Positions 3,151 to 33,114 of a stretch of 33,114 nucleotides of DNA are shown in pieces. The stretch comes from Candidatus Gastranaerophilales bacterium (GTDB taxonomy: Bacteria; Cyanobacteriota; Vampirovibrionia; Gastranaerophilales; Gastranaerophilaceae): NCBI GenBank assembly GCA_944324235.1, contig CALUVN010000025.1:1-33114 (forward strand), written 5' to 3'. A model generated the notes under the pieces. It did not search any database and was not told the origin of the DNA. It worked only from the letters and a program-made list of their open reading frames with translations. The translations under genes were made by a program, and so were the position numbers. How positions within the stretch are numbered: position 1 is the first letter of the stretch; each line of letters begins with the position of its first letter.

Positions 3151-4494
3151 ATGAAAATTGTCATCTATGGAGCGACCGATATAGGATGCTTGCTTGCAAC
3201 GGAATTTTTTGAAGACCACGATATAACAATAATTGATAATGAAGAAAGCCTGACAGATGAATTTAACAGGCTGGATATAAGTTTCATAAAAGGTAACGCT
3301 TCAAATATTCAGGTGTTACAGGATGCGGATATAAAAAGCGCGGATGTATTTATAGCCTGCACACCTCTTGATGAAGCAAATATTGTTGCCTGCCTTACAG
3401 CAAAAAAACTCAGCGGAGTCAGAACTATTTGTTTTGTTTCAAAAGAAGAATACAAATGCACTTTAAAATTTGAAAAAGACAATGACTTTTTCGGGGATTT
3501 TTTCATAGATTACATTGTATGGCCGGAAGAACTTTTAACACAGGACATCTTCAGAATCGTTACGGTTGCGCATGCTTTGGATGTTGAATATTTTGCTGAC
3601 GGACAGGCCAGACTTCTGGAGTTTAAATTAGAATCACACCATTCAATAGTTAATAAAAAAGTTAAAGACTGCGGGTTCACTGACGGGACTTTAATTGTAG
3701 GAATAACAAGAAACAGTGAACTTTTTATTCCGAACGGTGATACGGTATTACAGAATGATGATAAACTTATCTTTATGGGGACATCACTTTCTCTTGACTT
3801 ACTGGCCGGAGAATTTTTCTACGACAAAAGCAATGTAAAATCTGTCGCAATAATCGGCGGCGGCAATGTGGGTTTAATGCTTGCGCAAGCTCTTGAATCG
3901 CTTAAAATTAAAACAAAAGTCATTGAAAAAGATTATGAACGGTGTGAATGTATATCACAATACCTAAAAAACACACTGGTTATAAATGGCGACGGCACAA
4001 ACCTTTCCCTGCTGTCTGAAGAAGAAATAGGTGACTGCGATGTTGCAATAAGTGTAACCAACAACGACGAACGAAATTTGTTATGTTCGTTATTGTGCAA
4101 ACAGCTTGGAGTAAAAAGAGTAATAGCAAGAGTTGCAAAAGTTTTAAATATTCCTCTGTTTGAAAAAGTAGGAATAGATATCGCGATATCGCCAAAGAAT
4201 TCCGCAATCAGCGAAGTAAAAAACGACCTTGCTGAAACAAATGTAGGTATTTTAGCTACAGTAGAACAAGGGCAGGGTGAAGTTTTAGAAATTGAAATGC
4301 CTCAAGATTTTGATAACAAAAAAGTTATGGAATTAAAATTTCCTGCAAATGCTATCATCGGTGTTATTCAAAGAAAACACGGCATAATCATCCCAAAAGG
4401 TAACACTGTAATCAATAAAGGCGATATTTTAATTATATTTACAAAAGCTGATGATGCTGATGCAATTAAAAATTTTTTCAAGGTGAATAAATAA
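3151..4494 (+). CDS. trkA: Trk potassium uptake system regulatory subunit TrkA
   Basis: This 447-residue cytoplasmic peripheral protein gates the TrkH channel in response to bound NAD(H)/nucleotide. It is the full double-RCK form: TrkA-N at 1-125 beginning MKIVIYGATDIG with the acidic Asp at the end of strand 2 (ITIIDNE), TrkA-C at about 140-220, a second TrkA-N with a cleaner GGGNVG Rossmann motif near 230 and a second TrkA-C to the end (IVPKG-type IIPKGNTVINKGD). The first glycine motif reads GATDIG rather than GxGxxG, a small deviation. TAGGAG lies ten bases before the ATG. The stop overlaps the trkH start by one base (TAATG), so the subunits are translationally coupled. Confidence 0.94.
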   Translation: MKIVIYGATDIGCLLATEFFEDHDITIIDNEESLTDEFNRLDISFIKGNASNIQVLQDADIKSADVFIACTPLDEANIVACLTAKKLSGVRTICFVSKEEYKCTLKFEKDNDFFGDFFIDYIVWPEELLTQDIFRIVTVAHALDVEYFADGQARLLEFKLESHHSIVNKKVKDCGFTDGTLIVGITRNSELFIPNGDTVLQNDDKLIFMGTSLSLDLLAGEFFYDKSNVKSVAIIGGGNVGLMLAQALESLKIKTKVIEKDYERCECISQYLKNTLVINGDGTNLSLLSEEEIGDCDVAISVTNNDERNLLCSLLCKQLGVKRVIARVAKVLNIPLFEKVGIDIAISPKNSAISEVKNDLAETNVGILATVEQGQGEVLEIEMPQDFDNKKVMELKFPANAIIGVIQRKHGIIIPKGNTVINKGDILIIFTKADDADAIKNFFKVNK

Positions 4495-5963
4495 TGAGAC
4501 TAAACTATCTTGCTAATGCAATCGGACTAATAATGATTTATATAGGTATAGTAATACTGGCACCTATATTAATAGCATTAATCACACACGATACCTATTC
4601 AATAATGCCGTTTTTAACCGCAGGCATTATATCAACAACAATAGGACTTTGTCTCAGAAAATTTTTTCCAAACGCATCATCCGTTGAAAACTTAAATGAC
4701 ATCAAAAAAACTGAAGCACTCTTTGTAGTCGCAATATCATGGATAATCTTCGGTTTGATATCCGGCATTCCATATTTATTTTATGGCATAACCCCTGTAG
4801 ATGCAATGTTTGAAGCGACATCAGGCATAACAACAACAGGCGCAACAATTTTCACGACATTTGATTATCCGAAAGCACTGTTTTTCTGGAGATCACTAAC
4901 ACAGTGGCTTGGCGGCTTAGGAATAATCGTATTGTTCATTGCAGTACTTCCGCAATTTGCAGTAGCCGGCAGACAAATGTTTTTTGCGGAAGCACCCGGG
5001 CCTACTGAAGATAAGATTACACCAAGAATAAGAAACACAGCATCAACGCTGTGGGGAATTTATTTGATATTTACAATAATCCAAACCGTGCTATTAATGC
5101 TTGCAGGTATGCCTCTGTTTGATGCGATATGTAATTCATTTTCAACACTTGCAGCCGGAGGTTTTTCACCGAAAGCCAACAGCACCTTTGATTATCATTC
5201 AAATTTAATAACCTGGATTATGACAATATTTATGTTCATAGCAGGCAGTAACTTTATACTATGGATAAGAGCATTTAATCAAAAAAAGCCGTCTTTATTT
5301 ATAAAAAATGAAGAATTCAGATTGTACTTAAATTTGACAGTAATTTTTTCATTATTTATAGCGGCAAGCCTGATATATTCAAGCGGTTACAGCCCGTTCG
5401 AAGCGTTAACACACGCTTTTTATCAGGTCGCATCCATTTCAACATCTACAGGGAGTGCAAGTGTAGATTTTATAAAATGGGATTATACATCACAGATAAT
5501 TCTGTTTATAGTAATGTTTATGGGCGCCTGTTCAAGTTCAGCAGGCGGAGGTATAAAACTTACGAGATGGCTCATCGTTTTTAAAACAATGAAAAGCGAG
5601 CTTATAAGAATTCTGCACCCGAATGCAGTCTTTAACGTAAAAATAGATAATACAATCGTACCGAAAGAAGTTATCAGACAAATTATAGTATTTGTATTCT
5701 ACTATTTTGCAATTTTTATAATCGGTGCGATATTAATAAGTATAATAGAACAAAATATTATAGTTGGCTTAAGCACATCAATCACAACACTAGGCAACAT
5801 CGGCCCCGGATTTGCGCTGGCCGTTGGACCTATGGGAAATTTTGACAGCCTGCATATTATCACAAAAATTATCTGCATAATTTATATGCTTGTCGGCAGA
5901 CTTGAAATTATACCGTTTTTGGTGATGTTTCAACGCGACTTCTGGTCTATAAAAGAATCATAG
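4494..5963 (+). CDS. trkH: Trk potassium uptake channel subunit TrkH
   Basis: This 489-residue polytopic inner-membrane protein of the TrkH/KtrB family conducts K+ with TrkA as regulator. Four selectivity-filter-like loops are visible: TSGITTTGATIF, FSTLAAGGFS, STSTGSASV and TTLGNIGPGF. A long hydrophobic C-terminus follows. The intramembrane gate-loop region is glycine/serine-rich (MGACSSSAGGGIK). Length agrees with TrkH (about 485). It is the last gene of the operon; 102 bases follow before the TolC-like gene, with no clear terminator or promoter in that gap. Confidence 0.94.
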   Translation: MRLNYLANAIGLIMIYIGIVILAPILIALITHDTYSIMPFLTAGIISTTIGLCLRKFFPNASSVENLNDIKKTEALFVVAISWIIFGLISGIPYLFYGITPVDAMFEATSGITTTGATIFTTFDYPKALFFWRSLTQWLGGLGIIVLFIAVLPQFAVAGRQMFFAEAPGPTEDKITPRIRNTASTLWGIYLIFTIIQTVLLMLAGMPLFDAICNSFSTLAAGGFSPKANSTFDYHSNLITWIMTIFMFIAGSNFILWIRAFNQKKPSLFIKNEEFRLYLNLTVIFSLFIAASLIYSSGYSPFEALTHAFYQVASISTSTGSASVDFIKWDYTSQIILFIVMFMGACSSSAGGGIKLTRWLIVFKTMKSELIRILHPNAVFNVKIDNTIVPKEVIRQIIVFVFYYFAIFIIGAILISIIEQNIIVGLSTSITTLGNIGPGFALAVGPMGNFDSLHIITKIICIIYMLVGRLEIIPFLVMFQRDFWSIKES

Positions 5964-6065
5964 TAAAAAAATTTTAATGTTTATAAATGATTAAAATGAA
6001 CAAATAATATGTTTTAATCGTTGTATATATGTAAAAATAACCCAATCAAATGAGGATACTCCACA

Positions 6066-7541
6066 TTGTCATTACGCAGGAAAATAATTGGCTTAGTAAT
6101 ATGTATTGCTCTAAATTTAGGGCTTTGCAGCTTTGCATTAGAAGCCTCTGTTCAAATGATAGAAAAAGGTTCAGTCCTTTCAATGAATGATTGTCTTGAA
6201 ATAGCACTGGCAAACAGCCCGCTAATAAAACGTGCGAGATACAACTACGGAGTATCAGCAAAGAGTTACAGTATCTCAAAAACCGCATATTTCCCGACAA
6301 TAGGTGTAGGCACAGGATACTATGTGAATACTAACAGTTCTTCCGGCAGAGGCGGGATGTATAACAGAAATATGAGCAATAATTACTATTCTGCAGAAGC
6401 TTCATTGAATCAATTAATCTGGAACTTTGGAAAAACTAATGCGAACATTCGAATGTATAATTTTTACAGAATAGCGTCAATTTTTGACTTTGATACCATA
6501 GTACTTGATACTCTTTTTGAAGTAAAAACCAATTATTATAATGTTCTTGCTGCCAAAGCACAGGTTGAAATTAATAAAGCAAACGTACAAATTAACGAAA
6601 GAAATTACCAGAGAACAAAAGCTTATTTTGATGAAGGTATTCGTTCCAAAATAGATTTGGTAAACGCAGAAGTCTACCTCAGCGACTCAAAGGTATCACT
6701 TGTTAATTCCGAAAAAAATTACCAGAACGCCCTTGTCCAATTAAATAACTCAATGTATGTTGCATATACACCGGAATATGAGATAGAAAGCACAGAAAAC
6801 TTTAAATTCAATGATAACATGGCGGAAGTAAATCTTGAAGGTATATCACAAAAAGAAGACTACTCCGCACCTCCGGAAGATGTAGAAGATGCGTTTCTCA
6901 CCAGTCAAGTTGAAAAAATAGAAGTACTAACTGACTTTAAACTTAATCCTTTTCCTTATACATTTGAAGAATCACTTGAGATGGCATATGAAAACAGACC
7001 TGATTTAAAAGCCTATGATGCTACTCTCAGCGCAATGAAAGAAGCTCTTAAATACACAAAAAGAGAATATCTTCCGGAAATTAGCGGAAACGTAGGTTAT
7101 GGCTACAGAGATACCTACAATACCAATTCTTTCAATGTAGGGGTTTCACTGTCTACAAATGTTAATATACTTGCAACCAAACACGAAATAGACAGCGCAA
7201 AATTGCAGGTAGAATTAGCCAAAAATGAAATTGACTTAGCAAAACAAAATATATATTTTGAAGTTCAAGATGCCTATATAAATATGATGCAGCTGGAAAA
7301 ACAAATACCTCTGCTTGCAGTAAAAGTAAAACAAACCCTTGAAAATTTTGAGCTTGCTGACGGAAGATACGCTGTAGGCATAGGGGATTACATTGAGCTT
7401 CAAGATGCAAAAGTTAATTATAATAACGCACAACAATCTTATGTTGAAGCAGTATTTAATTATAACGTGGCAAGAGCAAACCTTGAAAAAGCAATAGCAC
7501 TGCCGCAAGAAATAACGACAACCATAGGGGATGAAAAATGA
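6066..7541 (+). CDS. TolC-family outer membrane efflux protein
   Basis: This 491-residue exported protein would form the outer-membrane channel of the tripartite pump encoded with it. A signal peptide occupies about residues 1-28 (RRKIIGLVICIALNLGLCSFALEA). Two OEP repeats follow, each with long coiled-coil helices: first around LFEVKTNYYNVLAAKAQVEINKAN and second around ESLEMAYENRPDLKAY to the C-terminus (YNNAQQSYVEAVFNYNVARANLEKA), as in TolC. An acidic insert lies between the halves (near 250-290). The TTG start at 6066 is supported by GAGGAT eight bases upstream. The stop overlaps the adaptor start by four bases. Confidence 0.9.
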   Translation: MSLRRKIIGLVICIALNLGLCSFALEASVQMIEKGSVLSMNDCLEIALANSPLIKRARYNYGVSAKSYSISKTAYFPTIGVGTGYYVNTNSSSGRGGMYNRNMSNNYYSAEASLNQLIWNFGKTNANIRMYNFYRIASIFDFDTIVLDTLFEVKTNYYNVLAAKAQVEINKANVQINERNYQRTKAYFDEGIRSKIDLVNAEVYLSDSKVSLVNSEKNYQNALVQLNNSMYVAYTPEYEIESTENFKFNDNMAEVNLEGISQKEDYSAPPEDVEDAFLTSQVEKIEVLTDFKLNPFPYTFEESLEMAYENRPDLKAYDATLSAMKEALKYTKREYLPEISGNVGYGYRDTYNTNSFNVGVSLSTNVNILATKHEIDSAKLQVELAKNEIDLAKQNIYFEVQDAYINMMQLEKQIPLLAVKVKQTLENFELADGRYAVGIGDYIELQDAKVNYNNAQQSYVEAVFNYNVARANLEKAIALPQEITTTIGDEK

Positions 7542-32869: not shown

Positions 32870-32905
32870 CTTACAAACGGTAAGATTCCGAAACAAGTTC
32901 GGAAT
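32870..32905. repeat. Tandem small hairpins (intergenic palindromes)
   Basis: CTTAC/GTAAG (32870-32884, 5-base loop) is followed directly by ATTCCGAA/TTCGGAAT (32885-32905, loop ACAAG), an exact 8-bp stem. Palindromes of this ATTCCGAA type recur between genes in many bacteria, as I recall, so this may be a dispersed REP-like unit. Confidence 0.6.
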
Positions 32906-32917
32906 GACATTATATCT

Positions 32918-32953
32918 AAAATTCTTTGGTGCAAATCGCGTGCCGTCTTTATC
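32918..32953. repeat. 36-base direct repeat, copy 1
   Basis: Begins AAAATTCTTTGGTGCAAATC and ends GTCTTTATC. It matches copy 2 (33079-33114) at 34 of 36 positions with an offset of 161 bases. Confidence 0.9.
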
Positions 32954-33012
32954 AAACTATTTAGGAATGCTTCTAGGACATTAACGGCGGCAGGGGGATT
33001 TTGCTAAGTCGT

Positions 33013-33037
33013 TGGCGAGAATGGGGAATTCGAGCCC
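33013..33037 (-). other. tRNA-3'-end-like sequence
   Basis: On the minus strand GGGCTCGAATTCCCC followed by a seven-base stretch and GCCA resembles a T-arm, acceptor strand and CCA end. The T-stem is only three pairs, and no complementary 5' acceptor strand or D-arm is found, so it is not a working tRNA. It may be a tRNA remnant (attachment-site scar) or coincidence. Confidence 0.25.
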
Positions 33038-33039
33038 TA

Positions 33040-33062
33040 CGGATTAGTATGCAACGCTAACC
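33040..33062. repeat. Seven-pair stem inside the repeat unit
   Basis: On the plus strand GGATTAG and CTAACCC flank the loop TATGCAACG; on the minus strand the pairing includes one G-T wobble. It shows that the segment between the direct repeats is structured. Confidence 0.5.
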
Positions 33063-33078
33063 CAATGAATTTTTAACA

Positions 33079-33114
33079 AAAATTCTTTGGTGCAAATCAC
33101 GTGCCGTATTTATC
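33079..33114. repeat. 36-base direct repeat, copy 2 (at window end)
   Basis: Second copy, differing from copy 1 only at two positions (A for G, A for C). The match reaches the last base of the window, so the true repeat may be longer. Confidence 0.9.

Follow-up and report, generated by a model that had tools for sequence, protein, structure and literature searches.

Hairpin units carrying tRNA 3′-end copies form tandem arrays behind tRNA genes of Gastranaerophilales, with a possible integron-like mode of capture

RESULTS

Tandem units at the end of the contig

The window, i.e., the whole stretch of 33,114 nucleotides analyzed here, ends where contig C25 ends. A tRNA search of the window found no tRNA genes, and the gene beside the array described below encodes a type II/IV secretion ATPase (T2SSE, E value of 7.6e-46). 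From the sequence of the window, the original prediction had called two 36-base copies spaced by 161 bases, the second of which reaches the window edge, such that an array might start there. Both parts are borne out. Self-comparison of the window shows that the inner 36 bases of the two copies agree at 34 of 36 positions and that the match extends to 51 nt at 86% identity (32903 to 32953 and 33064 to 33114, offset of 161), a length far beyond chance. The contig breaks off inside an array.

Read on the minus strand, the window edge comprises one full unit (32985 to 33108) and the truncated start of a second. A unit starts with the left arm, which repeats the 3′ end of the local tRNA imperfectly and in inverted orientation; A+T-rich hairpin 1 and then hairpin 2 follow, and after a few bases the unit closes with a direct copy of the same 3′ end. 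In the complete unit of the window, which scores 134.8 bits with model R1 and 115.1 bits with model R2, the parts on the minus strand are the left arm (33089 to 33108), an imperfect inverted tRNA-Glu(CTC) 3′ end (alignment A1 and a specificity test over 86 units); hairpin 1 (33062 to 33090), which changes rapidly and in a compensatory manner among relatives (fold and pair counts); hairpin 2 (33004 to 33047), the most conserved sequence of the unit (alignment, fold, and pair counts); and the second tRNA 3′-end copy (32985 to 33001), which runs from T-loop base 57 to the discriminator base and meets the rest of the unit at a junction between 33002 and 33001. On the same strand, an inter-unit spacer (32948 to 32984) leads to a trailing partial unit (32918 to 32947), seen by self-comparison of the window and made up of a left arm and the first half of hairpin 1, nothing more. 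At the other side, positions 33109 to 33114 (minus strand) are the start of the spacer toward the next unit or tRNA gene, cut off by the contig end. An arm-like copy immediately behind the last unit recurs elsewhere, being present at 19 of 106 terminal units versus 0 of 106 in a control stretch. The T-arm-like sequence noted earlier on the minus strand is also real and is explained by the tRNA-Glu(CTC) 3′-end sequence of the unit, direct on the right and inverted on the left. A short inverted repeat, GATTCCGAAACAAGTTCGGAATGACA, adjoins the array end at 32884 to 32909; similar sequences lie upstream of the tRNA in L021 and L022, and it resembles a dispersed repeat.

Three congeneric genomes (G001 to G003) and members of other genera carry the window-type unit, often in tandem when read on the minus strand. 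Wherever the contigs of these relatives continue, tRNA-Glu(CTC) lies directly in front of the unit. In the window's own assembly, a 72-base tRNA-Glu(CTC) query, run without a positive-control genome, gave no match, and this tRNA is absent among the 30 typed of the 37 tRNA loci of the genome. The repeat query likewise matched itself alone in its own genome at an E value of ≤0.001; the arrays were seen in relatives. The assembly break at the window edge was probably caused by the array.

Distribution of the units

The genomes surveyed are metagenome bins. Model R1 detected units in 112 of 288 genomes of the family, spread over 25 of 41 genera, and model R2 detected them in 132 of 286 genomes of the order, 3 of which fall outside the family. 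In a class-wide sample, 74 of 240 genomes were positive, and all 74 belong to the order. A pattern hit in Betaproteobacteria (L075) was not confirmed by the model and was discarded; the remaining 17 of the 18 stretches were confirmed. No Rfam family covers the units, tRNAs being the sole matches, and phage and plasmid records gave no match to them. The one hit among viral contigs, a tRNA-Thr locus with a unit (L332), is probably host flank. Among open-licence papers, we found none on such tRNA-anchored units.

Units are linked to tRNA genes through a single junction

From 143 hits, two weak ones were not carried forward and further weak or short ones were omitted; 135 units entered the tree, in which unit cores cluster mostly by tRNA isotype. 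A same-strand tRNA gene lies within 600 nt upstream of 111 of the 135, and 21 anticodons are represented. For the other 24, no same-strand tRNA is found within that distance, in part because contigs end. A model-free count of second tRNA 3′ ends agrees with this link: within 600 nt downstream, they occur at 14 of 34 tRNAs in G278 (one of these cases, Met, is a longer tRNA copy) and at 3 of 30 in the window's own genome, whereas the upstream control gave none in either genome.

For units at most 70 nt from the tRNA, the copy begins at T-loop base 57 in 75 of 88, and element-specific bases precede the base-57 copy in 69 of these 75. By an exact-repeat measure, 53 of 73 begin at the base-57 point. 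There is thus a single junction, which lies after C56 of the T-loop. GTTC is fixed before the insertion point, and the length of the duplication is not fixed: the right limit of the repeat varies and often includes the terminator behind the tRNA. The four bases preceding the right junction vary as well (AGCA in 30 of 75, then many others). A terminator-like hairpin is often located between tRNA and unit.

In 84 of 86 units, the left arm scores higher against the inverted end of its local tRNA than against other isotypes on average, with an observed mean score of 19.4 compared to 12.4 for permuted assignments and a maximum of 13.8 in 2,000 permutations; the fit is poor for Arg(CCT), Lys(CTT), and Pro(CGG). 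The unit thus tracks the local tRNA at both ends.

Selection acts on the secondary structure

A consensus structure obtained with RNAalifold from 12 units contains 35 pairs, 10 of which are changed on both sides. Among 110 model-aligned units, both partners have changed in 34 of the 35 pairs and 93.4% of cells remain paired, with a covariation score of 0.609, compared to 0.040 to 0.077 for slid versions and 0.165 for shuffles; these pairing and covariation figures are somewhat inflated, as the alignment was fitted to the structure, yet the slid controls are so far below that the effect is no artifact of the fitting. Hairpin 1 varies freely in sequence while its pairing is kept. In G043, two neighboring units differ by compensating changes in hairpin 1, and the part behind it is nearly identical. 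The secondary structure of the unit is under selection.

As for the functional strand, we lean toward the tRNA strand over the plus strand of the window, because G·T exceeds A·C there over all pairs (166 versus 64 cells; 28 versus 14 in hairpin 1 and 46 versus 32 in hairpin 2). On the plus strand of the window, hairpin 2 has tandem G·A mismatches and a lower energy. In the hairpins, G·T accounts for 2 to 3% of cells, versus 5.8% in the acceptor stems of the tRNAs at these loci, a control that consists of acceptor stems only, with the best-pairing frame chosen by script. A second control based on tRNA T-stems, in which 184 of 670 cells showed neither a pair nor a wobble, was dropped.

Empty and loaded cassettes

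The 161-base units contain no gene. In seven loaded inserts, by comparison, tRNA-end copies lie on both sides, a unit stands before the second copy, and additional DNA, mostly with genes, is located between the tRNA (or the preceding unit) and the unit. Empty and loaded cassettes both exist. Cargo between tRNA and unit reaches 2.7 kb and often has genes on the opposite strand. In L263, tRNA-Ser(TGA) is followed by three cassettes, one of them empty and two loaded, and the tRNA end is present there in four exact copies; the two loaded inserts encode a 570-amino-acid (aa) Mrr-type nuclease (Mrr_cat domain, E value of 1.9e-22) and a 243-aa protein without a match. Here, as in an integron, a structured site lies at one end of the cassette, cassettes are in tandem, and the point of addition is fixed. 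The remaining loaded inserts are one in L231 (a 241-aa protein without a match), one in L236 (a 414-aa protein without a match), two in L241 behind tRNA-Arg(ACG) (several open reading frames [ORFs], including HTH_3 and one weak HAD-type), and one of about 840 bp in L091. The tRNA-end copies are off by one and two bases in L241 and by four on the left in L091, and they are exact in the others. Among the cargo proteins searched, which were a subset of the ORFs of the loaded cassettes, there was no PF00589 integrase.

Three loci do not count among the seven: L233 (no right-end copy), L275 (556 bp between copies), and L243, where a third unit follows 1.8 kb encoding Zeta_toxin-like (E value of 3.5e-9) and DUF6613 proteins and no tRNA-end copy was found at that third unit. 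L234 and L235 were considered as loaded cassettes and rejected; their second copy includes more of the upstream part of the tRNA, and they were therefore filed as ordinary islands.

Some units far from a tRNA are the right end of a longer insert. An AbiH protein (E value of 2e-36) is encoded near a unit whose tRNA was not reached, and the same applies to a retron type VI reverse transcriptase (E value of 8.5e-79) near the unit of L228. In that locus, positions 4349 to 6887 hold an HTH gene, the reverse transcriptase, and an HsdM-like ORF (HTH and HsdM assigned by eye). These genes are possibly a retron and restriction cargo.

Relatives differ in units and cargo

Close relatives differ in both units and cargo. 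G294 and G302, of one genus, match at 93% over 1,051 aligned positions that include tRNA-Arg(CCT) and the sequence leading to it; past this gene, G294 has ∼1.66 kb of cargo, whereas in G302 an empty unit follows directly. At tRNA-Glu(TTC), G118 is one unit short of G162, with flanking matches of 93% and 97%, a state that could have arisen from unit loss by homologous recombination. Among eight congeneric relatives of G046, tRNA-Glu(CTC) stands without a unit in the stretch viewed in G009, G176, and G320, and G220, a relative of G046, has a left arm and hairpin 1 alone. One unit of G294 is 98.7% identical over 158 nt to a unit of G141, from another genus, with unrelated upstream flanks. This near-identity possibly reflects transfer between genera; the metagenome contig is short, and a binning error is possible as well.

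Neither an excised circle nor a clean pre-insertion site was seen, and the clustering of cores by isotype also fits old vertical descent. We infer, rather than observe, that the units move.

Further repeats

A second subfamily of units differs in its hairpins and in its junction, where the tRNA copy is mostly preceded by ..CAAGA or ..AAGAC. It again combines a second tRNA 3′ end with stable folds and falls outside models R1 and R2. In the window's own genome, such units lie behind tRNA-Arg(TCT) (L311, 1291 to 1500, minus strand), tRNA-Asp(GTC) (L317, 1313 to 1500, minus strand), and tRNA-Gly(GCC) (L323, 1573 to 1782, plus strand), and several G278 tRNAs have them as well (L165, L169, L171, L174, and L183 to L185).

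Separately, a motif of 30 bp (TAATTTAA..TTAAATTA), whose inverted ends match perfectly over 8 bp, occurs as a dispersed repeat in L284 to L301; genomes of one genus have as many as 6 copies. It resembles a dif arm in part. The motif stands in front of units in L039, L115, L125, and L272, some of which have no nearby tRNA. A larger mobile element around the tRNA-less units of L039, L115, and L125, suggested by this shared front motif, was considered and set aside. The motif was found in 9 of 22 genomes, repeated in some and mostly within one genus, and was therefore treated as a separate repeat.

DISCUSSION

A proposed cassette system and its alternatives

For the nature of the repeat, the original prediction had offered three options, each of which holds in part. 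Relatives contain tandem units of ∼161 bases; the units form a family with covarying hairpins, as expected of structured intergenic repeats; and the tRNA 3′ end is duplicated in the manner of an attachment site. The mobile element that was to stand beside this duplication fared less well: no integrase directly explains the repeat, and the retron-type reverse transcriptase near the unit of L228, a relative, is probably cargo. Not foreseen were the many different tRNA hosts, the arms that track the local tRNA, and the gene-carrying units.

Our best explanation, to which we assign about an even chance, is an integron-like cassette system that is anchored in tRNA genes and whose site is used as a folded strand. 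A cassette begins with the tRNA 3′ end (base 57 onward), in most cases continues with a terminator or spacer, may carry genes, and ends with the left arm, hairpin 1, hairpin 2, and the junction; the 161-base units would be gene-free cassettes. One strand of the unit would fold, with the left arm pairing with the right end, and this pairing would rebuild, as a short duplex, a copy of the tRNA gene's end, the crossover point lying at the base of the stem. A trans-acting recombinase would join this folded site to the T-loop of whichever tRNA gene it matches, and as the cassette supplies a new 3′ end, the tRNA would survive. The window would then end within a cassette array, with the anchoring tRNA-Glu(CTC) gene beyond the contig end. 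Given that the ends follow the tRNA, that the crossover falls at the start of the stem, and that the hairpins are kept, a folded-strand site is the simplest account. We regard the architecture as secure and mobility as likely, and we infer the folded-strand mechanism.

As to the recombinase, PF00589 genes were present in all 32 genomes tested, with just two each in G002, G008, and G211 (frames of 287 to 337 aa). In these 32 genomes, no PF00589 gene was tied to the arrays or shown to be an intI. Many short tyrosine recombinase frames of ∼180 to 200 aa, several per genome, occur across the family, and G176 has many. Phage-type integrases lie near units in L089, L235, and L272 and may belong to other elements.

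These integrases could also be taken in favor of a different account, in which the units are remnants or small relatives of tRNA-targeted integrative elements, deleted down to the att region, and double-stranded attP and attB are recombined by a tyrosine integrase that was formerly present in cis or now acts in trans. The 3′ ends of tRNA genes are the classic target of integrative elements, which adds to its appeal. We nevertheless consider it unlikely, because duplex att sites conserve sequence, whereas the units have retained base pairing despite two-sided changes in 34 of 35 pairs, and because the searched cargo proteins of the seven loaded cassettes include no integrase. The strong covariation and the excess of G·T over A·C on the tRNA strand would suit a structured RNA produced by read-through from the tRNA promoter, similar to rtT and aiding tRNA processing or regulation. 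Such an RNA is quite improbable here: a terminator-like hairpin often separates tRNA from unit, up to 2.7 kb of cargo intervenes with genes often on the opposite strand, wobble should be common yet stays at 2 to 3% (versus 5.8% in acceptor stems), and Rfam yields only tRNAs.

A little more doubtful still is the action of an HUH (Y1) transposase on folded single strands, in the manner of IS200/IS605 or a non-autonomous derivative, with left cleavage at the T-loop GTTC. The constant GTTC before the insertion point, the folding of one strand, and the unfixed duplication length agree with it, but the bases before the right junction vary (AGCA in 30 of 75) and tRNA-end copies at both ends are foreign to the IS200/IS605 group. 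Finally, mobility could be dispensed with altogether if tandem duplication and unequal crossing-over acted behind tRNA genes and palindromes were perfected by template switching, a process known to be able to perfect inverted repeats. Copy number and repeat length do vary, as this would predict; we give it very little credence in view of the one junction point and the core shared across 21 anticodons, and of the loaded cassettes that share that junction.

Returning to the tRNA-anchored cassette system, we tentatively raise a stronger version, which we hold to be somewhat improbable: a second, independent kind of integron, operating genome-wide in Gastranaerophilales, with tRNA genes as platforms, a folded single strand as the site that imitates the end of the tRNA gene it enters, and one recombinase serving many intact tRNAs.

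Meaning of the units

Integrons are the textbook case of cassette capture via a folded single strand, and the family described here has a comparable anatomy. If the mechanism holds, folded-site cassette capture has arisen in another form, and recombinase specificity becomes testable on many natural sites. In these uncultured gut bacteria, tRNA genes serve as docking places, with defense-type genes among the cargo. A practical way to search for mobile genes in the order follows, namely, to scan the DNA behind tRNAs for a second tRNA end that begins at base 57. The units probably also explain contig breaks and the missing tRNA in the window's assembly.

Comparison with known systems

The 178-bp repeats of Escherichia coli tyrT, the source of rtT RNA (Rfam RF00391), are arranged in tandem behind a tRNA gene, and every repeat includes the 3′ end of that tRNA. 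The units resemble them in these respects and differ in their many tRNA species, covarying hairpins, and gene cargo; the RF00391 model gave no match at the gathering score. Prochlorococcus tycheposons, from a related phylum, are likewise cargo elements at tRNA genes. They carry tyrosine recombinases and are far larger than the units, and we know of no structured small unit for them. With IS200/IS605 elements and their non-autonomous derivatives, the units share a folded single strand, non-autonomous copies, and a fixed insertion context. Unlike that group, in which both cleavage points have conserved tetranucleotides, the units have a variable right side, with no conserved tetranucleotide before the right junction, and tRNA-end copies at both ends.

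Closer parallels exist with tRNA-targeted integrative elements and their cis-mobilizable remnants, in which the tRNA 3′ end is duplicated and the tRNA is restored by the element. The 3′-end duplication is found here too, and neither the searched cargo proteins nor the 161-base units include an integrase in cis. In contrast to integrative elements, the units are as small as ∼125 to 160 bp, lack an integrase, possess selected hairpins and an inverted tRNA-end arm, and stand in tandem behind many tRNAs.

In integron attC recombination, one strand alone acts, and the features read are structural rather than sequence based (PMC2727003). The units are like integron cassettes in being non-autonomous, tandem, and empty or loaded; their folded site, like attC, is conserved in structure more than in sequence; and cassettes are added at one fixed point, with restriction and other accessory genes as cargo. 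The differences are that the platform here is a tRNA gene, of which there are many per genome; that the site consists of two hairpins plus a stem copying the tRNA end, unlike attC; and that cargo lies on either strand. Near the arrays, no intI was identified, and reading the units by eye revealed no attC boxes (RYYYAAC ... GTTRRRY) at the junction, which is of the form element/R57. We make no claim of integron membership; the units work like a cassette system.
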